A DNA stretch of 43,660 nt from Thermodesulfovibrionia bacterium (GTDB lineage: Bacteria > Nitrospirota > Thermodesulfovibrionia > UBA6902), in NCBI GenBank assembly GCA_020057065.1, contig JAGVGM010000364.1:1-43660 (forward strand), written 5' to 3'. A program made the translations under genes and the position numbers. Shown piece after piece: positions 14,395 to 28,117 of this stretch (the first letter of the stretch is position 1; each line of letters starts with the position of its first letter). The notes beneath the pieces are model-generated. The model saw only the letters and a list, made by a program, of their open reading frames with translations. It ran no database searches and was not told the DNA's origin.

Positions 14395-15066
14395 ATGATG
14401 GATACTTCTGACATACTCAGACAATTAGCCGTATCGGCTTTGCCGGTACTCATAGCAATAACATTCCATGAGGTGTCTCACGGTTTCGTTGCAAACAGAC
14501 TCGGCGATCCTACCGCTAAAATGATGGGGCGGCTTACGCTTAATCCTATAGCACATATTGATCCGGTAGGCACTATACTGCTTCCTCTTATGATGATTGT
14601 TTTAACTAACGGACAGTTCGTTTTTGGATATGCCAAACCTGTCCCGATCAACCCATCAAATTTTAAGGACCCTAAAAGAGACATGGCTATCTCAGCAGCA
14701 GCCGGTCCGATTACAAATGTCTTGCTTGCGTTATTAAGCATGTTAATTCTGAAGTTCATTGTAATACCGTCGTCTGTGTTTTTTCCCGGAATTATCACTA
14801 CAACGGTCCTCAAGCCTTTGACGCTGATGCTGACATCCAGTATCATATTTAACGTTATCCTGGCAGCCTTCAATTTAATACCTATTCCTCCTCTTGACGG
14901 CGGCAGGGTGCTGGTAGGGTTTCTCCCTCACAAACAGGCTGTTTCCTACAGCAGGATCGAGCCATTCGGCTTTATAATTGTTATTGTCCTGATCTACTCG
15001 GGAATTGCGGATTATTTTGTTATGCCCCTTGTAAGGCTGTTTTTGGCATTGCTGCAGTTGTTTTAG
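14395..15066 (+). CDS. Site-2 protease (M50) family
   Basis: HEVSHGFVANRLGDPTAKMMGRLTLNPIAHIDP...NLIPIPPLDGGRVL. Confidence 0.9.
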   Translation: MMDTSDILRQLAVSALPVLIAITFHEVSHGFVANRLGDPTAKMMGRLTLNPIAHIDPVGTILLPLMMIVLTNGQFVFGYAKPVPINPSNFKDPKRDMAISAAAGPITNVLLALLSMLILKFIVIPSSVFFPGIITTTVLKPLTLMLTSSIIFNVILAAFNLIPIPPLDGGRVLVGFLPHKQAVSYSRIEPFGFIIVIVLIYSGIADYFVMPLVRLFLALLQLF

Positions 15067-15069
15067 ACC

Positions 15070-17721
15070 TTACACATCCCACAAATAAAACGTCAGTGGT
15101 TTGTCTTCAAGCATGAAGTTCTTGACTACGGATATCTGGACATAAATACTTTCCTTAAGCGATAAGGTGCCCGTTGACGTCTTCCGCTCCATCTCTGCCT
15201 CGAACTGGTTAAGGAATTTCGCAAGCGCGTCCCTCGTGAGATAAAACCCCTTCTCCGTTTCGGTGAAGTCATTTTTTGTAATGACCTTGAGATTAGCCAT
15301 CCGGATTATAAGCCGGTCGATCCTCGCCCTGAAAAGCTCCTCGATGTCGCATACGAGCGATTCATAATTATCCTCAGGGCTGTGAAGAAAGCCGAGATAA
15401 GGATTAAGCCCGACCGCCCTTACAGTGGCGTTAATCCTTGAAAAGAGAAGGTAATAGCCGTAGTTGAGCAGGGAGTTTATTCTGTCGGGTTTTTTCCTCT
15501 GCCTTTTGGCGATGTGAAAAGCTTCGTCATCCATGAAGCGGTTAAGCTGCGGATATATTTTTTTTGCCGCAGAACCCTCATGTCCCCTTACCTCGTTAAT
15601 TCCGGCTGCCTGATGAATGTCCTTTATCGTCCTTTCAATATCTGCAATAAACGTTTTTGTATCTTTAGCGTATCGCTGCTTAAACAGCGGGATATAATTC
15701 CTGAGTTTGCCCGCGGCAAATTCCTTTGCAATGGAAAGCGTCTCCGTGTCCGTGAACGAATAATGTCTCTTTCCGTGTTCGTAAGACACGCTGTAGTATC
15801 TCTTTGAATCGGGCTTAACGGTCGTAATGAAATAGCCTGAATTCAAGGTAATCGTTATGGGAATGCCGCAGTCCGCACATGACGTCAAAAGCGCTGTGGA
15901 GAAGGACGCCTTTTCCATTACGATTATCTCGCTTATCCTCCTGAGCGGGATGGTCTCGATAACCTCTCCCTGCCTTTTAATATCAAGCGCATCGCCGTTT
16001 AATGACAGGAATGAATACCGGACTATTATGTACAAAGGTTTCTTAAGACGTTTGATATCCTCCTCCGGTTCGACCTTTACCTCTGTCCTTCCGAACAGCA
16101 TTCCGAGGAATTGAAAGCCCTCTCTGATATTCCGCACGGCAGTCTTTTCCTTTTTGATCTTAAGTCCGATTTCTGAGAGAAAGGATTCGGTCTTAGACAG
16201 CACAGCCTCCGCCTCTTCTTTTGACTTTGTCAGGATCACAAAGTCGTCTGCGTACCGGACCATCTTCACGTTCCAGCTTTTTATCTGCTCGTCGAACGAG
16301 TCCAGATACAGGTTGGCAAGAAGCGGCGAAAGCGGGCTTCCCTGCGCAAGGCCTTTCAGCCTCTCATGGAAAATGCCGCCCATGACATATCCGGTGCGGA
16401 CGGATTTTTGAATGAGATTTTTCAGACGCGAGTCCGCAGCCGGAATATAAATATCCAGCAGCCTGTCGAGCCTCTCAAGATCAATTGACGGAAAGAAGTC
16501 ATCAATGTCGGATTCGATAACGTACTCAAATCCCTCCGATGCCGCAGACTGCACCGCCTCAATCGCCTTGTGCCGGGATATGCCTTTTCTGAAACCGATC
16601 GAGCCTTCTTCCAATATACGGTCAAAGACTGTGGAGATTGTTCTCAGTAAATATTGATGTATTATCAGGTCCCTGAACGCAGGCTGCTCAACAAGGCGGT
16701 CCACCCCGGTTTTCTTTTTGATGAGAAAGGCGGTATGCGGCGTTGTTAAATACCTGTCCTCGATAATCCGCCGGCAAAGCTCGTCTGCGTATTCGTCCTC
16801 TTTAAAAGGGAATTTTTCCGTTGCCGAAAGAGATTCAAGCGCATTGTCATACCTGTCGAGCACGTCTTTGATGACGGAGACCATCGCCTTCTTATTCGGG
16901 AATTGTTTGTCGAAAAAGCCGGGGGACTCTTTATGAAGAATATAGTATCCCTGCGAATTGGAAAGCTTTGATCCTGCATGGATTTCGCTGCTGAGGATGA
17001 GAAAGGGAAGAAGGTTTTTAAATCTGCCTTTGATGTACAGCTTGCCCGAGCAGCCGTTTACGTATTGAGTATGTCCGGGCCGGGAGTGAGACGGATGCCT
17101 GATTTCAGTGTAATTCCAGTAATAAGGCAGGACAGAGAAGTCATCGCTGCCGTTTTCGTAAACAATGTCCCTGCCTGACAATCTGGATAACCTGTTTTCA
17201 AATGTCTTGATGAAGGTCTCTTTTGAGATGAATGTCCTGTTCTTATCTTTGTCTCTGCTGAATGGTATCGGCGAGAGGAATTCAAGGCATATCTCGCCCT
17301 CTGTCTGCACAACGCCGGATTCCGCAAGGAGTTTGTCAAAAGACCTTTCCTCTGCCTCTTCCATCTTGACGATATCATAATTCCTGCCGGTCACGGGATC
17401 AGAGAGATAATTTCTAAACGACTCTATCCACCGCTTCACATATTCCGCGTCTTTCCGAAAGAAAAATATCTCAAGCGAAATTACAGCAGACTCCTGAATG
17501 ATGAATGTATGTCTTTTGCCTTTTAAGTGGAAAAATATGAGCGGCTCGGCTTCTCTGTCCCCTGCCGATTCAGTCACGCCTTTGATAATCGCCTGAAACA
17601 CCGTCAGCGGATGAGCGGCCATTAAAGCAGACGTGCGGATATTCACCAGCGAGGTAGATAGCCTCCACCAGCGGAGGGAGGAGAAAGGATGCGGGTTGTC
17701 AGACATAAGCAATAATACCAC
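15070..17721 (-). CDS. Cas6-reverse transcriptase-Cas1 fusion
   Basis: N-terminal Cas6-like region (GRFKNLLPFLILSSEIHAGSKLSNSQGYYIL); RT (GLAQGSPLSPLLANLYLDSF, VRYADDFVIL); Cas1 (EGSAAKKIYPQLN, GLNPYLGFLHSPEDNYESLVCDIEELFRARID). Confidence 0.93.
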   Translation of the reverse strand: MVLLLMSDNPHPFSSLRWWRLSTSLVNIRTSALMAAHPLTVFQAIIKGVTESAGDREAEPLIFFHLKGKRHTFIIQESAVISLEIFFFRKDAEYVKRWIESFRNYLSDPVTGRNYDIVKMEEAEERSFDKLLAESGVVQTEGEICLEFLSPIPFSRDKDKNRTFISKETFIKTFENRLSRLSGRDIVYENGSDDFSVLPYYWNYTEIRHPSHSRPGHTQYVNGCSGKLYIKGRFKNLLPFLILSSEIHAGSKLSNSQGYYILHKESPGFFDKQFPNKKAMVSVIKDVLDRYDNALESLSATEKFPFKEDEYADELCRRIIEDRYLTTPHTAFLIKKKTGVDRLVEQPAFRDLIIHQYLLRTISTVFDRILEEGSIGFRKGISRHKAIEAVQSAASEGFEYVIESDIDDFFPSIDLERLDRLLDIYIPAADSRLKNLIQKSVRTGYVMGGIFHERLKGLAQGSPLSPLLANLYLDSFDEQIKSWNVKMVRYADDFVILTKSKEEAEAVLSKTESFLSEIGLKIKKEKTAVRNIREGFQFLGMLFGRTEVKVEPEEDIKRLKKPLYIIVRYSFLSLNGDALDIKRQGEVIETIPLRRISEIIVMEKASFSTALLTSCADCGIPITITLNSGYFITTVKPDSKRYYSVSYEHGKRHYSFTDTETLSIAKEFAAGKLRNYIPLFKQRYAKDTKTFIADIERTIKDIHQAAGINEVRGHEGSAAKKIYPQLNRFMDDEAFHIAKRQRKKPDRINSLLNYGYYLLFSRINATVRAVGLNPYLGFLHSPEDNYESLVCDIEELFRARIDRLIIRMANLKVITKNDFTETEKGFYLTRDALAKFLNQFEAEMERKTSTGTLSLKESIYVQISVVKNFMLEDKPLTFYLWDV

Positions 17722-17766
17722 AACTCCTGAGACAGGGAAATAAAATTTTGTTCATGTAAAAAAATA

Positions 17767-17794
17767 TAGGGGCGGATTTAAAACCCGCCCCTAC
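17767..17794. repeat. Palindromic element P4 abutting the distal end of the CRISPR array
   Basis: taggggcggatttaaaacccgcccctac; same family as P1/P2. Confidence 0.8.
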
Positions 17795-18987
17795 TTTGCT
17801 CTACCGATAGAGATGTCCTGCCAGACTATCTTATTACAATGATCGTGAAGGAATTATGTTTCAGGCTCTACCGATAGAGATGTCCTTCCAGACACCACCA
17901 ATTCTTCTCTAAAAACCCCAACAGTTTCAGGCTCTACCGATAGAGATGTCCTTCCAGACTTTAGGCTTTGTAAGAATTGTAAAAAGATTTTAATTGTTTC
18001 AGGCTCTACCGATAGAGATGTCCTTCCAGACTATATCGGGGATGCTGAAAAAACTTTACGAGCGTTTCAGGCTCTACCGATAGAGATGTCCTTCCAGACA
18101 TATTCCTATCTTCCTTGCTATTCCCATCTGTTTCAGGCTCTACCGATAGAGATGTCCTTCCAGACCAATGAAGTTATTGCACAGGCTGTACAGAGTGTTT
18201 CAGGCTCTACCGATAGAGATGTCCTTCCAGACATAGGTTGCCGGGGTTATAAACTGGCATATAGTTTCAGGCTCTACCGATAGAGATGTCCTTCCAGACA
18301 ATTATGATGTTCTTAAAGCTCTGTCAGTACCAAAAATGTTTCAGGCTCTACCGATAGAGATGTCCTTCCAGACTATAGGGGCACCCCAATTAAAAAAATT
18401 GATTGTTTCAGGCTCTACCGATAGAGATGTCCTTCCAGACGTTTGCAAATAGCAAGTGGAGACCTGCGGATGTTTCAGGCTCTACCGATAGAGATGTCCT
18501 TCCAGACATGCAAATAAACTGTCCATGCGGGAGCATTTTAGTTTCAGGCTCTACCGATAGAGATGTCCTTCCAGACAAATTGGAGCAAAGCAACATGCTT
18601 ATAAATTGTTTCAGGCTCTACCGATAGAGATGTCCTTCCAGACAGATTGACGATGCTGTAAATGCCATAGCGAATGTTTCAGGCTCTACCGATAGAGATG
18701 TCCTTCCAGACCAAATGATTTGGAGTCGGAATACTCAAATGAAAATTGTTTCAGGCTCTACCGATAGAGATGTCCTTCCAGACTATAGCCCCGTAGCATT
18801 TGGAATTGGGTTAATAATGTTTCAGGCTCTACCGATAGAGATGTCCTTCCAGACTAATGTCGTTAGTTTTTATGAGAAAAAATTGTTTCAGGCTCTACCG
18901 ATAGAGATGTCCTTCCAGACTAAATTCTCTAAATGGCCGCAGATGCTCAATGTTTCAGGCTCTACCGATAGAGATGTCCTTCCAGAC
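17791..18987 (-). CRISPR. CRISPR array, 18 repeats (17 intact 36-mers + 1 degenerate terminal), 17 spacers of 30-38 nt
   Basis: Plus-strand repeat GTTTCAGGCTCTACCGATAGAGATGTCCTTCCAGAC. Degenerate repeat at left (17791-17826). Minus-strand repeat GTCTGGAAGGACATCTCTATCGGTAGAGCCTGAAAC ends in GAAAC, with hairpin CTCTA-TCGG-TAGAG leaving the 8-nt handle CCTGAAAC. Confidence 0.99.
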
Positions 18988-19022
18988 CCCTTCCATTATA
19001 ACATACTGTTTTCAAAGAGCAA
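18988..19022 (-). promoter_or_regulatory. CRISPR leader promoter
   Basis: On the minus strand TTGCTC (19022-19017), 16-nt spacer, TATAAT (19000-18995), ending 7 nt before the first repeat. Confidence 0.65.
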
Positions 19023-19033
19023 TTAAACCGAAA

Positions 19034-19091
19034 ATTCAGAACCCCTTCGATGTAAACAGTTTTTTCCAAGTTATCCACAGGGGTTCTGAAT
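19034..19091. repeat. Inverted repeat in CRISPR leader, with a DnaA-box-like sequence
   Basis: attcagaacccc (19034-19045) and ggggttctgaat (19080-19091), perfect 12-bp arms; ttatccaca at 19071-19079. Confidence 0.8.
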
Positions 19092-19183
19092 AACCAATTA
19101 CCAATTATCAATGAGCAATGATCAATTAAGGAAAATTTATATATCATCACTTGTTCATTCATCATCACTAATTGTTAGTTGTC
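19092..19183. repeat. AT-rich intergenic repeat copy A
   Basis: caattatcaatgagcaatgatcaattaaggaaa...cttgttcattcatcatcactaattgttagttgtcttt, similar to copies B and C. Confidence 0.75.
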
Positions 19184-19536
19184 TTTCTCGATGTTTTCAC
19201 TATTGAAAAAAGTATTTTTGTAATCGCGTCTGATTCATTAATCAAGTCTTCTATTGATTGTCCATCGACCTGTTTAGAATCCCTTATCAGTCTCAGCCAA
19301 TATTTTGATTCCCGTGCCTCTTTTTGTGCGATGTTCATCTTATTTGTAAAATCGTTTTTGCTATATCCGGATTGGGCTTCTTCCACATTAGCCCCAATTG
19401 ATGTCCCTGAACGAAGTAACTGCCTTCCGATGACCTTACAAACTTCATTTTTTGGCAAGGAACCGACTAATCTGATAACTCTCAACGAAAACTGATAACT
19501 CCTGTCTACAATTTCATTTCTCATCGTAAAAAACAA
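19168..19536 (-). CDS. Four-helix-bundle protein (S23 / bAvd-like family)
   Basis: RSYQFSLRVIRLVGSLPKNEVCKVIGRQLLRSGTSIGANVEEAQSGYSKNDFTNKMNIAQKEARESKYWLRLI. Confidence 0.9.
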   Translation of the reverse strand: MFFTMRNEIVDRSYQFSLRVIRLVGSLPKNEVCKVIGRQLLRSGTSIGANVEEAQSGYSKNDFTNKMNIAQKEARESKYWLRLIRDSKQVDGQSIEDLINESDAITKILFSIVKTSRKTTNN

Positions 19537-19540
19537 TGAA

Positions 19541-19625
19541 CAATTATCAATGAACGATGATCAATTTCGGAAATTTTATCATCATTAATTGTTCATTCAT
19601 CATTGCTCATTGTTAATTGTCTTTT
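19541..19625. repeat. AT-rich intergenic repeat copy B
   Basis: caattatcaatgaacgatgatcaatttcgg...attaattgttcattcatcattgctcattgttaattgtctttt. Confidence 0.8.
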
Positions 19626-19907
19626 CTATACAATAAAAGCCGCTCCGTCATCTATATCCGGCTCCTTCTTATCTCCGATTACAATATCCTTTGACGAATA
19701 CTCAAGCCGGTAGACCTTTATAAAACCGGTCTCGATATTCAGCGCCTTCAGCTTCTCAATTAACTGCTCCTTGCCGCGCCTGTTGAGCCTGCACTCAAAG
19801 ACGCTTTTCTGCACCCTGAAGCCAAAGCCCTTCAGCGCCTTGTCAACACGGTTTCGCTCCGCATCAGAGCTTATGTCGTAGACAACTGCATAGTCGGAAA
19901 TGCTCAT
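19626..19907 (-). CDS. cas2: Cas2
   Basis: MSISDYAVVYDISSDAERNRVDKALKGFGFRVQKSVFECRLNRRGKEQLIEKL. Confidence 0.92.
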   Translation of the reverse strand: MSISDYAVVYDISSDAERNRVDKALKGFGFRVQKSVFECRLNRRGKEQLIEKLKALNIETGFIKVYRLEYSSKDIVIGDKKEPDIDDGAAFIV

Positions 19908-19915
19908 AAAAAATC

Positions 19916-19993
19916 CAATTATCAATTAAGGAAATATTGTTCGTCATTAATTGTTCATTCATCATTGTTAATTGTTAATCGTTAATTGTCTTT
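19916..19993. repeat. AT-rich intergenic repeat copy C
   Basis: caattatcaattaaggaaatattgttcgtcattaattgttcattcatcattgttaattgttaatcgttaattgtcttt. Confidence 0.8.
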
Positions 19994-20304
19994 ATTTCAA
20001 TTCCAGTCCGTATTATTTCCCTTGCGAAAAGGTCGTCCTCGTTGAAATCTTCCGGCCTGAACGGGTGCAGCTCGATGCGGGAATCCACCTTGAGCATGAA
20101 GGGGTTAAGCATTTTCCTGTCATAAAAGCGAATACCTGAGAAATCGGGGGAGACAATCGCAAGATCGATGTCACTCCATTCATGTACTTTGCCGGTTGCA
20201 TATGAGCCAAACAGCACAGCCCTTTCGATCCGTATATTGGCGTCTTTCACGAGCTTAAGGAATCTTTCAAGCACGCCTATTGCTTCATCTGCGACAACAG
20301 CCAT
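19975..20304 (-). CDS. MNT-type nucleotidyltransferase (MntA-like antitoxin)
   Basis: ERAVLFGSYATGKVHEWSDIDLAIVSPDF: GSx..Gx..SDIDL motif; overlaps the HEPN gene. Confidence 0.88.
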   Translation of the reverse strand: MAVVADEAIGVLERFLKLVKDANIRIERAVLFGSYATGKVHEWSDIDLAIVSPDFSGIRFYDRKMLNPFMLKVDSRIELHPFRPEDFNEDDLFAREIIRTGIEIKTIND

Positions 20305-20669
20305 GAATACATCTCCTTTATTGTATTAAAATTGACTCCTGTGAATTCTTTCGTGCAAAGCTTGTAAAACAGCAATTTCTGGTCCGGGTACCGAGCTTCA
20401 AGATTGAAATCGTTGATATCGGTCAAGATTGTTTTCTGTTCATCTGAGAATTGCAGATTTATTTTTTCGGCGAGCCTTGGAAGGTTGTGTATCTTTGGGG
20501 GAGTAACATCGTTGTCGCGCGTATAAAAAGCCTTCAAGACCTTCTCGATAACAAGATGCCCGATAAACAGACACCAGTCGTACTTGCCACTGTTAAACAG
20601 TGTCTCGGCTGCATCAAGGTCATGGTCTGCCGAATCAAGCCAGTATTGAATATGCAGTTGTTTATCCAT
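20277..20669 (-). CDS. HEPN-domain protein paired with MNT
   Basis: HIQYWLDSADHDLDAAETLFNSGKYDWCLFIGHLVIEKVLKAFYTR...NLEARYPDQKLLFYKLCTKEF. Confidence 0.88.
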   Translation of the reverse strand: MDKQLHIQYWLDSADHDLDAAETLFNSGKYDWCLFIGHLVIEKVLKAFYTRDNDVTPPKIHNLPRLAEKINLQFSDEQKTILTDINDFNLEARYPDQKLLFYKLCTKEFTGVNFNTIKEMYSWLLSQMKQ

Positions 20670-20701
20670 GGAACTATATTATCATAACCCGTGCAGAATC
20701 A

Positions 20702-20953
20702 CTAAAACGGACTGTGGTCGAAGATCACTATGTCTCCCGTTACAGGGCTTCTGTAAATAAGTTTCCTCGCCTTGCCGTGCAGCGCATGTGCAATCTTTAA
20801 ATAAAGCCACACCGGAGCCGCTCCAGTCAGAACAACATCATTTCCTTCGCCTGCCAATTCTTTAGCCTTTTGGATATATGAATCAAGATCAGCGAGCTTG
20901 GCGGTGTTTGTGAAGAAGGTGTTGAGGTCGATGAATCTATGTTCCTTTGTCAT
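20702..20953 (-). CDS. Csx3/Crn3-like protein, putative cyclic-oligoadenylate ring nuclease
   Basis: 83 aa; DVVLTGAAPVWLYLKIAHALHGKARKLIYRSPVTGDIVIFDHSPF resembles the Csx3 core (TGxxPxWLY..LAH...VxxSH); adjacent to a CARF gene. Confidence 0.65.
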   Translation of the reverse strand: MTKEHRFIDLNTFFTNTAKLADLDSYIQKAKELAGEGNDVVLTGAAPVWLYLKIAHALHGKARKLIYRSPVTGDIVIFDHSPF

Positions 20954-20954
20954 A

Positions 20955-21731
20955 CTATGATACTTGCTTAAGCTTAAAACGGATATCTATATATCTTGGA
21001 TCCGAGCCGATAGCGCGGTCAGCAGTTCCATCAGGATTATATTTTCGAGGTTTCAAAAACTGCAACTTCCTTTCAGGAGGCGCACAAGCCAATATCATTC
21101 CGGCAGTCATAGATTTTGTTCCACCTGTATAATCGGAGATAACGTCAAATTCCTCAATTTTTTCATCTGACAATGATTCGTAGATACTCTCAATTATTTT
21201 ATAAACTTGTTCGGGATTATCGGCATCATCTCCTGACATTTTATCAACGTACTTAAAAATATCTGGCGGAAAATCTTCTTTAACTAATTTCTCAACCAAT
21301 TCCTTCGCTGCCTTCTTAGAAGCCTCACCTCCAGTTATCATCCAGCAATGTTTCAATACCGGGTGGTTATGCTCATTATTCAACCCTTTATAATGAAAGC
21401 GAATGGCCTGCTCTGCTGATATATTTGACCCGAAACTGCAAAACACAATCAGGCCTTTATGACGTTCCGGCACCATTCCTATTTGTGAAAGCAATTCTAC
21501 ATGGTCTCTAATAACAAAATTTATAAATTTCGATACCGGATCAAAAAATATAATGACCCCCCATAATATCGCAAGTCCGATAATAGTGATAAGCGATGAA
21601 TGAAGGCCTGTCCACTCTTTAATTGTATCGGTTAAACTATTTGTTGTAACCCCAATGAGATAAATCATTCCGAGAAATAATAATGGAGGAGCTTTGTCAG
21701 CATTAAAAAGTTTTGTAATTATTTTTCGCAT
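20955..21731 (-). CDS. Two-TM-helix + CARF domain protein, candidate membrane cOA effector
   Basis: TM segments PPLLFLGMIYLIGVTTNSL and SLITIIGLAILWGVIIFF, then Rossmann-like CARF with DVISDYTGGTKSMTAGMILAC. Confidence 0.82.
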   Translation of the reverse strand: MRKIITKLFNADKAPPLLFLGMIYLIGVTTNSLTDTIKEWTGLHSSLITIIGLAILWGVIIFFDPVSKFINFVIRDHVELLSQIGMVPERHKGLIVFCSFGSNISAEQAIRFHYKGLNNEHNHPVLKHCWMITGGEASKKAAKELVEKLVKEDFPPDIFKYVDKMSGDDADNPEQVYKIIESIYESLSDEKIEEFDVISDYTGGTKSMTAGMILACAPPERKLQFLKPRKYNPDGTADRAIGSDPRYIDIRFKLKQVS

Positions 21732-21754
21732 AGGAGCCTCCTAACTTAAACAAG

Positions 21755-22768
21755 TCATTTGAAATACCCATACCCCACTGCCGTCTTTGCGCCTGCGCCG
21801 ATATTCTCAAGAGCTTCTTTGAGCAAATCAAATCCGCAAGCTACGTCTAATGGTGTCCCTGCTCCGGGACGTGGAGCAAGAGAGAATTTGAACTGAACGC
21901 CCTCTTTGACCGTCAAGAAGAAAATTGGTCGAGGGCTGTGATAATCCGCAGGTGGTGTCACGCCGGTTTTGTCTTCATAATATGGAGCATAATGTGGATT
22001 CATGATATCGACTTCAAGCTTGGGCTTCTCGACAGGAAGAGCATCGAAAACGATCAGACGTCCTGCCCCAAGCTCATCACTGTCACCGAATAGATGTTTC
22101 ACTTCGTTCCATACATCTTCATTGCTCCAACCTTTTTTCGGATCAGCCCAAGCCCGGATGAGTCCTTTGACGGATGAGCCAGGCAGATATGGGACGCCCA
22201 ATATTTTGTGCCAGACAAAACCTGTCTCCAACACATGCCCCATACCAAGACCGCTGACAAATCGCCATTGAGTAGTAAAGATTTTTGATTCTCCTTTCAG
22301 ATCAGTCACTAAACTGGTAAGTCTTTCACAATAAGTGTTGAGAAGTTCTGGGGTAGTCGAGTGATTATTTAGATATGCTGCAATCACATTCAAAAACCAT
22401 GTCTTAGGATTTTTGTTCCATAATGGATTTCTTTTTAGATCATCCGGCACATTTTTTCGTTCGTCAATTTGTTCTTTCCATTTATTAGGCCCTGACCAAT
22501 GATCACAGAATTTATCAAAAAGGAGTCCTGTGTTGGCAGTCGCTTCCATTGGTCGCGGTGATGTATTTTCACATCCTAACCCCTTGTAAAGCGGCAGCAC
22601 ACGTCTTGGCACTTTGTCACCTCCATCATGTTTTCCACCTGAGTGTTGCGTATCTTTTCTCTTTGGTTTATGCTCGTCTTTTTTCTTCTGAGGATCGCCA
22701 TTCTTCAACGGTATATTACGAGCTTTAGCAAGTTTTGCGATTTCATCGCGCATGTCACCCATGATCAA
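21755..22768 (-). CDS. cmr6: Cmr6
   Basis: GLGMGHVLETGFVWHKILGVPYLPGSSVKGLIRAWA...LENIGAGAKTAVGYGYFK. Confidence 0.93.
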   Translation of the reverse strand: MIMGDMRDEIAKLAKARNIPLKNGDPQKKKDEHKPKRKDTQHSGGKHDGGDKVPRRVLPLYKGLGCENTSPRPMEATANTGLLFDKFCDHWSGPNKWKEQIDERKNVPDDLKRNPLWNKNPKTWFLNVIAAYLNNHSTTPELLNTYCERLTSLVTDLKGESKIFTTQWRFVSGLGMGHVLETGFVWHKILGVPYLPGSSVKGLIRAWADPKKGWSNEDVWNEVKHLFGDSDELGAGRLIVFDALPVEKPKLEVDIMNPHYAPYYEDKTGVTPPADYHSPRPIFFLTVKEGVQFKFSLAPRPGAGTPLDVACGFDLLKEALENIGAGAKTAVGYGYFK

Positions 22769-23181
22769 CCGCCCTCTGCCTTCGGCAAATCCGCTTCAGC
22801 AAACTTCTTCATCCATGTGAGAAGTTTCAGGGTTTCATGCTGGGCGTGCATGTATTGCTTGCGGTCGCCGTTCATGAGGCACGTAATAAGATCGCTGCCG
22901 GTACAGACTATGCAGTTGGAAAACAGCCATGTTTGCAGTTGAGCATAAAGCGTCCACGAAGGCTCTTTCTTTTCGCCTTTGTCGTCGGCAAGCAGAAATG
23001 CAATTGCCTGACCAAGGCCGTTGTTTAAAATCATCGCAGGAAGTCTTTTGACCAGCGTAGCATATTTAGTTTTATCACCAGTAAAGCCAGTAACCTGCTC
23101 AAGCGCATATTTCGCGCGGTCCTGTTCAATCGTCCGGCTCATTGTAAGCCTCCGCTTTCCGGAACATATTGTATCGCGCAC
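22765..23181 (-). CDS. cmr5: Cmr5
   Basis: MSRTIEQDRAKYALEQV...YATLVKRLPAMILNNGLGQAIAFLLAD. Confidence 0.9.
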   Translation of the reverse strand: MRDTICSGKRRLTMSRTIEQDRAKYALEQVTGFTGDKTKYATLVKRLPAMILNNGLGQAIAFLLADDKGEKKEPSWTLYAQLQTWLFSNCIVCTGSDLITCLMNGDRKQYMHAQHETLKLLTWMKKFAEADLPKAEGG

Positions 23182-24074
23182 CAGCCCATGCCTATGGTTT
23201 CGTTTCCGCCGATCTGAATATAATCCTTTATCGCGCTTTTAAATTTAGTAATCACATTATCTGCGCTTACGATAGTTCCGTTTCCACCCCTCGGCTTCAT
23301 GGCCACAATCATTGAGTAAAAAAGACAGTCCGGCGGCAGACTTTCTTCATACCAAAGATTTTCACTCGTCTTGTTTTCATTCAAGACGTTTCTTGCGGTA
23401 ACTTGAGTAGCGTGTTTGACAAGATAAGTGAAATCATCATTGGAAATTATTACCAGATGATCGTCCATCTTCTCTCGAACTGCCTTGTAAACGCCGTTGT
23501 TATTATTGCCGGGCATGAATTTTTTTATCTCAACAATCCATTCTTTAACCCCTGTAGATTCCCCCGGGATCAATAGGTGCTCTTCTAAAACCAGTTTTGT
23601 GTCAAGACCGGAATCGTCTACGGCAAGGAATCTTCCATCAGTAACTTGAGGCGTTTCGGGAAGAACGGGAAGTTGGGGAATAGTTTTCTTCAAAATATCA
23701 ACATCTCTTTTTAACCGATCCAATACCATTGGACATATCACCCACACATACACCTGTGAAAGTGACCTAACAGGGAAGGCGAGCAAACGTGCATCAGTTA
23801 TTCCGATTGATCCGGCGTGTTCGGTGCTTTCAGGTCCGAAAATAATATTGATGTCACCATCATTTAAAAGCCTGTTGCCTTTGTCATCGCATAGTTTCTC
23901 CGCCTTTTCCCTCATCGCGCCTTTCAGCCCTGAAGACTGAATGATCGGAAACCCTGTATGTTTTTCCCGCTGAATGGGAAGGTCAACGACTCCCGTTGTT
24001 GTCCCTGTTCCCGGATGAAGCGACGTCTCTGAAAATAAACCGACTAACACGCCTTTCTCAAACATTCTTACCAC
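23139..24074 (-). CDS. cmr4: Cmr4
   Basis: VGLFSETSLHPGTGTTTGVVDLPIQREKHTGFPIIQSSGLKGAMREKA. Confidence 0.95.
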   Translation of the reverse strand: MVRMFEKGVLVGLFSETSLHPGTGTTTGVVDLPIQREKHTGFPIIQSSGLKGAMREKAEKLCDDKGNRLLNDGDINIIFGPESTEHAGSIGITDARLLAFPVRSLSQVYVWVICPMVLDRLKRDVDILKKTIPQLPVLPETPQVTDGRFLAVDDSGLDTKLVLEEHLLIPGESTGVKEWIVEIKKFMPGNNNNGVYKAVREKMDDHLVIISNDDFTYLVKHATQVTARNVLNENKTSENLWYEESLPPDCLFYSMIVAMKPRGGNGTIVSADNVITKFKSAIKDYIQIGGNETIGMGWCAIQYVPESGGLQ

Positions 24075-25201
24075 CTCCCTAATCTATAATGCCCAAATCC
24101 AATTTTACTGTTTAATCCGATCTTGCCTTCCACTGCCAAGTTGGAAGGGTCGCCGCCTGTCACTTCAAAGTAATAAACGCTGCCTGCTGGGACATAGCTT
24201 CTCATGGGCTTGTTCTCTTTTCGCGCCATATCAAAGCCGCCGATCTTCTGCGCCTTGCCCGTACAGGCGGAGATAAGTTTCAGATCCACTCCATGAATTT
24301 GTCCTGTCCAACACGCTGCGCCCTTGTCATCAGTAGTTTCAATAAAGTCACATGGATACCAAGCGCCGTCGAAGTCAGCGGGCTGAAGAAGAACCATCTT
24401 GATCTTTCTGTTTGCAGAGATACCGGCATTTGAGGCGCTCGGATAATTGTCGATTGATAGTTTCACCACTTTCCCTTCGCCGCCGAATTTAATCGTTGCC
24501 GGAGTCTTTGGCTCCAAATCACCGGCTATCCCATTCACCCTGAACCGAATTTCTACTCTTTTCTTATCCTTCCCTTCTCTGAGCCTCAACGGAACGATTG
24601 AGTACAGCATACCCGTTTCTACACCATGTGATTCATATTTTCTCTTAATCCCGACCTTCGGCTCTTTCTCAAAAAATTCAGTGTCATTGAGAATATCTTG
24701 CTTGCCGGATGGGACAATCCCTTCTAAATAAGTTGTGAATGCGTCCTCGCTGATCCAGCCTTTCATGGGCTTGACGGCTCGCTGTCCGGTTGCAGGAAGA
24801 TGGGCATTTCCGATATCACAATTGACCTGCTCGTCGGAGGGCACAAGCAGAAGCGCCCCTTTTTCATCCTCCATAATATCCAGAGGAGCAGGGTAATATC
24901 GTTTGTCGTCCTTGAAAAGATACGGCCCGTAAATGTCGAGTAATCCATAATCAAACTCTTTTTGAGAGCCGATTGCTTCAGGCAGGTTACAGCCTTCCTT
25001 ATGTTTACAACTTTCACATTTAAATATGTCGTCTGATTTGCAGTGAGCGCGAAGTATCGCATATCTCATAAAGCCCTGTATTGTCTGAGGCGCGGGAGGA
25101 AAGATTGACTCAAGCCACCCTGTCTCCCCCATGCCAAAAGACATTCCGTCTCTGAAAAAGAGCGTGTCAAGCGGCTGAATTATCCATTCCCTGCTCATCA
25201 C
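24068..25201 (-). CDS. cmr3: Cmr3
   Basis: IIQPLDTLFFRDGMSFGMGETGWLESIFPPAPQTIQGFMRYAI. Confidence 0.93.
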   Translation of the reverse strand: MMSREWIIQPLDTLFFRDGMSFGMGETGWLESIFPPAPQTIQGFMRYAILRAHCKSDDIFKCESCKHKEGCNLPEAIGSQKEFDYGLLDIYGPYLFKDDKRYYPAPLDIMEDEKGALLLVPSDEQVNCDIGNAHLPATGQRAVKPMKGWISEDAFTTYLEGIVPSGKQDILNDTEFFEKEPKVGIKRKYESHGVETGMLYSIVPLRLREGKDKKRVEIRFRVNGIAGDLEPKTPATIKFGGEGKVVKLSIDNYPSASNAGISANRKIKMVLLQPADFDGAWYPCDFIETTDDKGAACWTGQIHGVDLKLISACTGKAQKIGGFDMARKENKPMRSYVPAGSVYYFEVTGGDPSNLAVEGKIGLNSKIGFGHYRLGRW

Positions 25202-27096
25202 TGTATCTCCTTATCGGATAGGAATCGCACAAATAACGGTCCATCTGATTGCGGAACCGATTTGCCCTCATCATCAGGGTAAAGCGAGAGTTTATAAAAG
25301 GCTTTCACCCTCTCTTCAGCTTTATCACGTTTTTTATCGGCTTCCGGTGGCAGGTTCAGATTCCCCCGGCTGCCGAGATATTCAGCGGTTAAAAGCTTTA
25401 TTCTGTTTTCTTCGGGAGCAATTGTCTTTATGATTTCAATTAACTCTTCAAGGCGATAAATAAATCCGGTGGTGTATGCGGTACCATTTCCGGATGGTTT
25501 ACAATGCTCCTTTATCCTGTCAACTTCCTCAGCCCAATTAATATTTGCTTCCTTCCATTTCTTGCCGAATGTCAAAATCGGTCCGCCGCGTTTCCAGACA
25601 CGGACGGCGAAGGCGTTGCGATCTAATTTCTTTTTTGCTATATCATCGAGTAAGTCATGAGCGTCTCTGACAACCGTCTGAAGCGGGGTGTTCATATGAG
25701 CATAAACAATCCCCGCGCTTATTGTGCCTTTACCCTTATCTACTATCTCCTGAATATTGTCCTTGAATGCCTTAACGTATACTTTACTCAACGCCCATGC
25801 GCAGGGCAACGCTGTATCAAGAGGCAGCAGAGCAAGCACGTCGTCGCCGCCTGCGTAAATAAGCTTGCCGTTGTGTTCGTCTTCTACAATTTTTTGAGCT
25901 TTTTGAGTGACCTCCGACAAGGCTTCTGAAATCTCTTTTTGCTTATCTTTGTATTCAGAAAGCAGTTTCCCCATGTTGTCGCCGTCCATGAGCAAAAGAG
26001 CGTAAAACGGTGTCGGACTTTGCTTCGAAGCATCGGTTAATTTCTTTAATACATCAATGATATCCGTTTTCTTGTTTTTGTCAGGTAAAGGAAAATCAAC
26101 ATCATTACGGATAGCATCAGGGAAGAAAACATCGCCTCTGAAATCGGCTATATCTTTCCACTCAGGATGCTTATCTGTTATGCTCGAAACACATTTTATC
26201 TTTGTCTCTGTCTCGTCGCGAGGGACTTTAGCTGCATTTGCTGTTTTGATGAAAGATTGAATCTGTTCTTGTAACTTCTTATCATCTTTATCTGCCTTAT
26301 CTAAAACATATATCAGCCAATCAACAACACACATATACGCAGTAGACGGATAATAATGATTAAAATCCCAATCAAAAGGACCTTCTCCTTTTTTTATTAG
26401 AGGGAGAAGTCGTTTAGTAGTACAAACAGCGCAAAGTCTTTCTCTCCCCTCCTTGCGCCAGAAGTGATAGCCTGTGGTCTGATTAAATTTATCGGCTACA
26501 TTTGTCCACCAATCTCTAATGTCTTTGCGGCTATCCATTTCGCCTTTTTCGCTTAACACTTGCCTCTCGCCGCATATCGTGCATTTCTCACCGGGTTCTT
26601 CTGCCGGGAAATGAGTTCGCAAATTCTTCCTCTGATCGAGTAGAGAACCTTCTTTACCGATGACCCAACTTATCTCCCACTGGTTTTCGACTTGCCTCTT
26701 CCAAATTTTATCTATAGCAGGAGGAGGAGTCTCAATAAACTTTTTCTTGGCCGCTTCCGTAATTTTCTCCCAAACATCCCGGACAGCCTTTGCCGCTTCT
26801 TTAGCGGCGGCGGCTGGATCGTACGCCTCTGCCATGAATCGGTTAGGCAAGGAGCCGATACGGGCGGCTGGGTCGTCTTTAGAGATGGCTGTCGGATTAT
26901 TCAACGCCTTAAATAAATGATCATTGTCAATCGAAGGGAATACAATCACACCGCCGTTGTCTTTAATCTCTTTCATTGCGACTCCGGCAAGATACGAAAG
27001 GATATAAGACCCTGCCCATAAGTCCCGCGTCCTTCTCGCCTGCGATACAAAGCCCTGAACGGGACCAATGGAGAAATGGAAGTGACCATTAGGCAT
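25198..27096 (-). CDS. cmr2: Cmr2/Cas10 lacking an N-terminal HD domain
   Basis: MPNGHFHFSIGPVQGFVSQARRTRDLWAGSYILSYLAG...; zinc CTICGE/CAVC; LLMDGDNMGKLL; YAGGDDVLALLPL. Confidence 0.95.
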   Translation of the reverse strand: MPNGHFHFSIGPVQGFVSQARRTRDLWAGSYILSYLAGVAMKEIKDNGGVIVFPSIDNDHLFKALNNPTAISKDDPAARIGSLPNRFMAEAYDPAAAAKEAAKAVRDVWEKITEAAKKKFIETPPPAIDKIWKRQVENQWEISWVIGKEGSLLDQRKNLRTHFPAEEPGEKCTICGERQVLSEKGEMDSRKDIRDWWTNVADKFNQTTGYHFWRKEGRERLCAVCTTKRLLPLIKKGEGPFDWDFNHYYPSTAYMCVVDWLIYVLDKADKDDKKLQEQIQSFIKTANAAKVPRDETETKIKCVSSITDKHPEWKDIADFRGDVFFPDAIRNDVDFPLPDKNKKTDIIDVLKKLTDASKQSPTPFYALLLMDGDNMGKLLSEYKDKQKEISEALSEVTQKAQKIVEDEHNGKLIYAGGDDVLALLPLDTALPCAWALSKVYVKAFKDNIQEIVDKGKGTISAGIVYAHMNTPLQTVVRDAHDLLDDIAKKKLDRNAFAVRVWKRGGPILTFGKKWKEANINWAEEVDRIKEHCKPSGNGTAYTTGFIYRLEELIEIIKTIAPEENRIKLLTAEYLGSRGNLNLPPEADKKRDKAEERVKAFYKLSLYPDDEGKSVPQSDGPLFVRFLSDKEIQ

Positions 27097-28117
27097 TGAG
27101 CTTCACCTCCTCTAAGTTTTCTTTCAAAAATGTTGCATTGAATTCAGTTGTTGTCGAGATGTAAGAGCGAAATACCTCTGCCTGATTCTTTATGAGAGGA
27201 TTGGTTGCACAATATTTGTAAGGCAAGAACAGAATGATTCCTTTGTATTTAGTCATCCCATCAATCTCCACAGGATTAACATGCAGAAAATATGGTTTGG
27301 CATGCCGATCTAAAAATTTCTTCACATCTTGCACAATTGGCGCAGCGATGTACCGTCTTTTCTCATAGCTATGCTTTTTTTCGAGGTTTTCTCTTGACTG
27401 TTTGTACGCAGTTCCTATTGCTGCTAATGCCTTGTCCCAACAATCAAATGCGATTTTTGTTTGAAAGAGCCGTGTTTCACGGGAAAAAGCTGTATACTCT
27501 GCTATATCATTCTTGATAAAAGGACTTAATAGACTCGTAATGTCGGAATAATTGAGTTCTAATTTTGAAGGGTTTTTGATGACAGTCAAACCTCCGAAAC
27601 CATTTCTGCTTCTTGAGCCAAGGCCTCCAAAGGCATGAAGTAACTGAAAAGCATTTGTTATGTCTTTACGATCAGACTCCTCTAATATACCTCGCCATTT
27701 CAGCGTAAATGACAATTCGGTTTCGGGTTTGATATAAGGTCTATTGAAAACATTTATCCCTTTCTGACGATCATATGTGCCATAGCACAGATACTCCAGT
27801 ACATTAATTTTATAGGATTCATCTCTGACCGAAACGGAATGAGGAGGAAGGCTATCTTTTGATATAGACTCACTTGGTATATGGCCTTCATGCATAATAA
27901 GAAGTTTACTTTGACCAGAATTGTCGTCTGTTCCGCCAAATAATCGTGATTCTCTTTCATGCAGCTTTTCAATTGCGAAATCACATTTTGATGCCCTGTA
28001 CCAGAATCTCAATGCCCCTTTAATTGACGGCGCTCGCAGTTCAGCTTTTTCATTTGGGTCTGCCCCGCCCAAGAACATCGGTGTGACGGTTTTGAGTATG
28101 ACGGTGAGTTTATCCAT
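27089..28117 (-). CDS. cmr1: Cmr1
   Basis: VTPMFLGGADPNEKAELRAPSIKGALRFWYRA...LFGG...GGLGSRSRNGFGGL. Confidence 0.93.
   Translation of the reverse strand: MDKLTVILKTVTPMFLGGADPNEKAELRAPSIKGALRFWYRASKCDFAIEKLHERESRLFGGTDDNSGQSKLLIMHEGHIPSESISKDSLPPHSVSVRDESYKINVLEYLCYGTYDRQKGINVFNRPYIKPETELSFTLKWRGILEESDRKDITNAFQLLHAFGGLGSRSRNGFGGLTVIKNPSKLELNYSDITSLLSPFIKNDIAEYTAFSRETRLFQTKIAFDCWDKALAAIGTAYKQSRENLEKKHSYEKRRYIAAPIVQDVKKFLDRHAKPYFLHVNPVEIDGMTKYKGIILFLPYKYCATNPLIKNQAEVFRSYISTTTEFNATFLKENLEEVKLNA

Follow-up and report, generated by a model that had tools for sequence, protein, structure and literature searches.

Introduction

The closest described relative of the locus reported here is the type III-B CRISPR system of Marinomonas mediterranea MMB-1, for which RNA-capable spacer acquisition has been shown (PMC5576922; PMC5513706, branch 1); RNA spacers of fusions between reverse transcriptase (RT) and Cas1 are also treated in PMC11014452. 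We analysed a stretch of 43,660 nucleotides from a Thermodesulfovibrionia bacterium of the Nitrospirota (contig JAGVGM010000364.1; hereafter the window), in which a locus shares with the Marinomonas system six Cmr genes, an HD-less Cas10, a Cas6-RT-Cas1 fusion, Cas2 and the lack of a separate cas6, but differs in that its CRISPR array sits between Cas2 with an S23-like gene and RT-Cas1. The architecture is thus already known, and the window locus is a variant of it, accompanied by a testable evolutionary association with membrane-type effectors.

Several described systems compare with its signalling genes. Cam1 (PMC10808066; PDB 8t64), beside which ring nucleases occur in 81% of loci (PMC12409355), shares a homologous CARF domain and an N-terminal membrane part with the transmembrane (TM) CARF protein of the window, but has one TM helix where the latter has two hydrophobic segments. 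Cap1 (PMC12642688) likewise carries two TM helices ahead of a domain that binds cyclic oligoadenylate (cOA), but that domain is a tetramerising CARF-like one accompanied by DUF4579, which the window protein lacks. Crn3/Csx3 of Archaeoglobus fulgidus (AfCsx3; PMC7371418) shares a histidine face (H57, H60, H80) and a WL..AH..H core with the Csx3-like protein of the window. Type III-B loci bearing CorA (PMC10600005) share a membrane effector and, in B. fragilis, an HD-less Cas10, and RT-Cas1 fusions occur among them according to the legend of Figure 1 of that paper; they use CorA and SAM-AMP signalling, whereas the window has a CARF protein and, by prediction, cOA.

Results and Discussion

Gene content and organization of the locus

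Taken jointly, the observations are best explained by an intact type III-B (Cmr) system with Cas6-RT-Cas1 and Cas2 adaptation and a membrane-acting signalling output, a reading that we hold to be highly probable. The genes run on the minus strand from 28117 to 15070, listed here in order of transcription with the matches to profile hidden Markov models (HMMs) that identify them.

27089..28117, minus: Cmr1, 342 residues (TIGR01894, 6.6e-15, 55.7 bits, above cut-off)
25198..27096, minus: Cas10/Cmr2, 632 residues, HD-less, palm motif YAGGDD (TIGR02577, 5.6e-57, 194 bits; PF22335 palm2, 1.7e-36)
24068..25201, minus: Cmr3 (TIGR01888, 5.1e-43)
23139..24074, minus: Cmr4, backbone RNase subunit, VVDLPIQRE motif (D31) kept (TIGR02580, 1.3e-62)
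22765..23181, minus: Cmr5 (TIGR01881, 9.3e-18)
21755..22768, minus: Cmr6 (TIGR01898, 2.6e-43)
20955..21731, minus: TM-CARF effector, 258 residues (PADLOC CARF8--CARF_TM, 6.2e-42; hydropathy)
20702..20953, minus: Csx3-like protein, 83 residues, divergent subfamily (PF09620, 29.4 bits, cut-off 21)
20277..20669, minus: HEPN protein of a HEPN/MNT pair (PF05168, 8e-20)
19975..20304, minus: MNT (MntA-like) nucleotidyltransferase of the pair (PF01909, NTP_transf_2, 7e-12; MntA NF047752, 3.4e-9, below cut-off)
19626..19925, minus: Cas2 (TIGR01573, 3.2e-15)
19168..19536, minus: four-helix-bundle (23S rRNA IVP/S23) protein (PF05635, 5.7e-23; TIGR02436, 6.5e-28)
19089..19182, strand not assigned: heptamer-type degenerate repeat block (pattern search)
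17858..18987, minus: CRISPR array, 17 identical 36-nucleotide repeats and 16 spacers of 30-38 nucleotides
17799..17826, minus: degenerate terminal repeat at the leader-distal end of the array
15070..17721, minus: Cas6-RT-Cas1 fusion, 883 residues (Pfam RVT_1, 105 bits; Cas1, 214 bits)

All six Cmr subunits exceed their NCBIfam cut-offs, which assigns the locus to type III-B; Cas2, HEPN, NTP_transf_2, 23S_rRNA_IVP and Csx3 each exceed the Pfam cut-off, and the HEPN gene adjoins the MNT gene, as in HEPN-MNT (type VII) toxin-antitoxin (TA) pairs. A first-pass annotation had read the region as a complete type III-B Cmr locus with a membrane CARF protein, all on one strand and free of a separate cas6, a Csm6/Csx1 RNase and Cas4. 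Every gene listed is supported by HMM at its position, and none of those three was found within the locus. From Cmr1 through Csx3, neighbours overlap or lie no more than about 25 bases apart. Cas6-RT-Cas1 starts 136 bases past the array on the same strand and might be expressed from the transcript of the array; we infer both this transcript and the operon from strand and spacing. On the opposite strand, the locus is flanked by an M50-type peptidase gene ending at 15066 and by TrpS from 28338, both named from sequence.

The Cas10 protein begins at Cmr2_N, contains no HD motif and keeps GGDD, a combination that implies signalling, and the VVDLPIQRE motif of Cmr4 reads as intact; its Asp is established as the catalytic residue in the Cmr4 family. 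Cleavage of RNA guided by crRNA and synthesis of cOA by this Cmr complex are predicted from these two motifs.

Adaptation module and CRISPR array

The fusion protein comprises Cas6 (residues ~146-258), RT (334-541) and Cas1 (563-841) domains. Its Cas6 part is sub-threshold (18.9-21.1 bits against a cut-off of 25), but the assignment holds because three homologues score 25.1, 28.7 and 31.0 bits over the corresponding stretch. With RT and Cas1 in one protein behind an N-terminal Cas6, it belongs to the Cas6-RT-Cas1 group (branch 1 of Silas et al.), and its best solved relative, 7kft, is also a Cas6-RT-Cas1. Inactivating mutations in RT, Cas1 or Cas10, which the first-pass annotation had named as evidence that would overturn it, are absent: the YADD of RT (at 490), E715, H780 and D792 of Cas1, and the GGDD of Cas10 are all intact in the sequence.

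The repeat of the array occurs nowhere else in the genome. With the crRNA strand taken as minus, it ends in CCTGAAAC and contains an internal hairpin, CTCTA-TCGG-TAGAG. A search of Rfam gave no match. None of the spacers matched phages or plasmids, and only weak partial matches were seen in the bacterium's own genome. This want of protospacers, the shortness of the array (16 spacers) and the separation of RT-Cas1 from Cas2 by array and S23 gene would fit a decaying or incomplete locus, its adaptation silent and its array a relic. We regard such decay as very improbable, however: all 17 repeats are identical, every reading frame and catalytic motif is intact, and the order Cmr6-Cas2-array-RT-Cas1 is retained in a distant Nitrospirota relative (G014). 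In that genome (L049 13419-19901 and L056 1203-7717), a unit that joins a 3'-terminal piece of cmr6 to cas2 and a CRISPR array is repeated in tandem ahead of Cas6-RT-Cas1.

Blocks related to the heptamer-type repeats also occur at 19528-19620 and 19914-19982, so that such blocks lie between array, S23, Cas2 and MNT genes; shuffled sequences are expected to yield none. The closest RT-Cas1, at 82% identity (L020), stands beside a different TA-like pair, upstream of which (178-243) degenerate heptamer repeats like those of the window occur. The blocks are possible junctions of module exchange.

The TM-CARF and Csx3-like proteins

Two N-terminal hydrophobic segments of the TM-CARF protein precede a CARF domain with the motif DYTGGTK. 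A search with the single sequence did not find Cam1, whereas a profile of eight TM-CARFs ranked Cam1 (8t64) first among solved structures (E = 7.9e-7) and also matched Crn1 and Card1. By this profile the domain belongs to the Cam1 group; in place of the single N-terminal helix with its pore-lining Asp, there are two segments in which no Asp is evident by eye. Judged from its sequence, the protein is a distant relative of Cam1, not a Cam1 by architecture. In the locus L055, the TM-CARF position is occupied (1095-1688) by a 197-residue protein that has two TM segments, lacks a recognised sensor domain and is a candidate new membrane effector.

The Csx3-like neighbour keeps H56, H59 and H80, invariant in the alignment of its subfamily, and matches PF09620; its score for TIGR02579 is below the cut-off of that model. 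Across loci, members of the subfamily share 55-84% identity, and the nearest PADLOC relative is a Csx3 domain fused to CARF-HEPN (PDLC01844). A structural model (pLDDT 79) for which Foldseek ranks AfCsx3 second (E = 0.11) is supportive only. Three loci (L021, L022, L026) had suggested Csx3 as a partner of RT-Cas1. We rejected this: the same Csx3 is present in 41 of 396 Nitrospirota genomes, against nine matched by RT-Cas1 at the cut-off used, and it trails a CARF gene whether or not the locus has RT, which places it with signalling rather than with RT. The gene order CARF-Csx3-adaptation is seen again in loci of III-B, III-D and III-A-like type.

The TM-CARF could instead be a membrane-tethered sink or regulator of cOA, not a toxic pore, leaving defence to target-RNA cleavage by Cmr4 alone. 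Some CARF domains act as ring nucleases, and one of these, Crn1 (SSO2081), is among the solved relatives; the Cmr4 motif is kept; and the two segments depart from the single-helix architecture of Cam1. Nevertheless a separate Csx3 already adjoins, the similarly built Cam1 and Cap1 depolarize membranes (PMC10808066; PMC12642688), and the HD-less Cas10 with GGDD implies signalling, so that such a role appears quite unlikely to us.

Genome context

The metagenome-assembled genome (4.16 Mb in 377 contigs, 98.7% complete) contains five cas1 genes, of which one is fused to RT. The window gave its sole strong match to the Cas10 domain PF22335; further hits were discarded, one (C86) as a GGDEF protein and two (C204, C150) as sub-threshold. 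The only other type III loci found in this genome, two that are III-F-like (L190, L191), carry divergent Cas10s missed by the palm-domain search; absence of an active cyclase has been reported for III-F Cas10 (PMC12409355). A further CARF nuclease elsewhere in the genome, the other finding that would have told against the first-pass annotation, was not detected in the assembly by a CARF-HEPN model. With this model a Card1-type protein of L053 reaches 7e-9, and the absence is therefore informative, though not complete.

On contig C330 of this genome, L191 (371-9730) encodes III-F-like Cas10f, Cas5f, Cas11f and Cas7f together with a group II-like RT (310 residues, FADD) that stands alone; after it come genes for a four-helix-bundle protein, for Cas1 and for Cas2, and then a CRISPR array. 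An RT with III-F may be unreported, and the contig could be a contaminant. S23/IVP genes near cas1 or cas2 occur in the window (19168-19536, near Cas2 and RT-Cas1), L190 (140-484) and L191 (7356-7733), and also in L180, L183, L189, L174, L171, L124 and L115; in L171 (5806-7459) several tandem copies or fragments lie beside RT-Cas1 and array. Of the ten S23/IVP genes in the genome, three are no more than 1.5 kb from a cas1-bearing locus, of which there are five (chance ~1e-5). S23 was rejected as an RT-specific partner analogous to Avd, as it also accompanies ordinary Cas1 loci.

Effector classes in RT-linked and ordinary loci

We surveyed about 80 loci, scoring neighbourhoods with HMMs, PADLOC and Pfam. 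RT-Cas1 proteins related to that of the window occurred in 9 of 396 Nitrospirota genomes, 5 of 395 in the phylum of L022 (Myxococcota by label) and 5 of 372 in the phylum of L026; with an RT-Cas1 model the second of these counts rose to 17, and plasmids, mainly cyanobacterial, added more. Loci without RT had been found through Csx3, and 14 of these had an ordinary cas1 in view. Among 26 RT-linked loci with an identifiable signalling effector, 21 had a membrane type (19 membrane only, 2 mixed) and five a soluble type only, as follows.

Membrane only, TM-CARF: window, L048, L022, L026, L058, L180, L182, L186
Membrane only, TM-SAVED: L124, L139, L114 (the last also with Mem_01)
Membrane only, Mem_01: L050, L106, L138, L171
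Membrane only, CorA: L107, L168, L181, L176
Mixed: L142, two TM-CARFs and a Card1-type protein
Mixed: G014 (L049/L056), a soluble CARF protein within Cmr, with TM-SAVED and a 515-residue CARF protein next door
Soluble only: L052, L053, L108, L179, L169 (weak match)

All 14 ordinary Cas1 loci had soluble nuclease-type CARFs only (Card1-type or CARF proteins of ~510 residues). Fisher's test, which ignores descent, gave p = 5e-7 for 21/26 against 0/14, p = 6e-6 with mixed loci counted as soluble, and p = 9e-5 by Nitrospirota genus (8/10 against 0/13). Some of the 19 calls are soft: in L058, at a contig edge, no more than a fragment of RT is present, Mem_01 is split in L050, and RT is fragmented in L026 and L124; the membrane gene is some 5-11 kb away in L182, L186 and L176; and L139 also encodes a CARF/HD-CE protein. 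The counts exclude L055, whose Cas10 groups as sister to that of the window at 58% identity. RT-linked loci without an identified effector, outside the 26, comprised L166, L167, L172-L174, cyanobacterial plasmids and short contigs.

Membrane-type effectors thus turn up repeatedly among RT-linked type III loci, across several phyla. A published census counted 52 Cam1, 4 Csx23 and 53 CorA among 908 effectors (PMC11229360). Among the papers that we searched, none was found to state a link between RT and membrane effectors; PMC10600005 depicts CorA loci with RT-Cas1 fusions. The Mem_01 proteins (L106, L114, L138, L171, L050) have 4-6 TM segments and, in L106 and L050, the C-terminus WEEKT.TEPL; in L106, L114 and L171 a separate CARF-type gene precedes Mem_01, forming two-gene sensor/channel pairs. 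In the cyanobacterial plasmid III-B loci (L183-L189), CHAT/TPR or NB-ARC genes are often near RT-Cas1 and Cas10s are often large. L135, with cas1 not in view, has both TM-CARF and Card1.

A competing account leaves gene identities untouched and contests only their coupling: the Cmr, CARF-Csx3, TA, Cas2/S23 and RT-Cas1 modules would be independent and shuffled by recombination, and the correlation would reflect inheritance and subtype bias. The RT adaptation module has been described as autonomous, combining with diverse effectors (Silas et al. 2017; PMC5513706), heptamer blocks part array, S23, Cas2 and MNT in the window, and the nearest RT-Cas1 has a different TA-like pair beside it, with the same repeats. 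In the Cas10 tree, moreover, III-A, III-B, III-D and CorA clades separate; loci lacking RT fall mostly in the III-A-like clade with HD Cas10, and those with RT in the III-D, CorA and III-B clades, leaving few contrasts within each. Only III-B and III-A provide any: within III-B, RT-linked loci are membrane (window, L055, L106) and soluble or mixed (L169, G014), and those without RT (L123, L128, and L129 with cas1 not in view) are soluble; within III-A, L180 contrasts with the rest. Against shuffling, unrelated membrane architectures (TM-CARF, TM-SAVED, Mem_01 with APE2256 CARF, CorA, the L055 TM protein) accompany RT across III-A, III-B and III-D, and a single genome (G332) holds both kinds, an RT locus with TM-SAVED (L139) and an ordinary Cas1 locus with a Card1-type protein (L113). 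We give independent shuffling a little under an even chance. The association itself, confounded by subtype, phylogeny and sampling, suggests a hypothesis and is not a result.

Proposed mechanism

In the integrated system that we favour, the Cas6 domain would cut the array transcript, and Cmr would bind invader RNA and cleave it through Cmr4, while the HD-less Cas10 would make cOA, most likely cyclic tetra-adenylate (cA4). Binding of cOA to the CARF of the two-TM protein would open or perturb the membrane, as Cam1 and Cap1 do, and growth would stop; the Csx3-like neighbour would lower or buffer cOA; and RT-Cas1-Cas2 would add spacers from RNA and DNA. By analogy, the locus may follow the Marinomonas III-B RT system as far as acquisition, with an output resembling that of Cam1/Cap1 systems. 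It probably records RNA as well as DNA invaders, and its defence seems to work through opening of the membrane and not through destruction of RNA. The first-pass annotation had joined RNA-capable acquisition to cOA signalling with the membrane as its only visible CARF output. The single-strand linkage, the intact motifs and the membrane protein as sole CARF effector found bear out the pairing; that the two depend on each other does not follow from them, and their functional integration is put forward as a prediction. For the tendency of membrane-type effectors to accompany RT-Cas1 in related loci, a plausible cause would be that an effector which spares nucleic acids keeps host RNA fragments away from RNA-copying adaptation.

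Several points weigh against this reading. Activity, cOA species, membrane effect and RNA acquisition are predictions; the spacers found no targets; and the structure that AlphaFold predicted for the TM-CARF from an input of four sequences was too poor (pLDDT 48) and was set aside. Asp69 and Arg71 of AfCsx3, essential or important for cA4 cleavage (PMC7371418), align with Ser and Val in the window Csx3 subfamily. The assembly is 6% contaminated. Card1-type soluble proteins stand with RT in L052 and L053, L108, L179 and G014 being further exceptions; no membrane effector was identified on the cyanobacterial III-B RT plasmids L183-L185 and L187-L189, where Cas10s are large when in view; and the distribution of RT over the Cas10 tree confounds the association.

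A further proposal, which we consider doubtful, is that RT-Cas1 type III loci have been selected for nucleic-acid-sparing membrane effectors and HD-less Cas10, the window, whose only signalling genes are TM-CARF and the divergent Csx3, being one example. On this proposal, RNA-based adaptation and effector choice would co-evolve, because the RNA from which RT-Cas1 draws its spacers would be degraded or contaminated by collateral RNases or DNases.

Conclusions

The divergent yet highly conserved Csx3 stands behind membrane CARFs as well as nuclease ones and is a clear target for biochemistry. How a cell that copies RNA avoids spacers from its own transcripts, and why spacer sources are obscure, is an old puzzle of RT-Cas1 systems. 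Should the association fail, the locus would still count as a relative of the Marinomonas system that is well preserved and has its candidate effector identified; if RT-linked loci do avoid nuclease effectors and act on the membrane, the choice of effector would be part of the answer to that puzzle.

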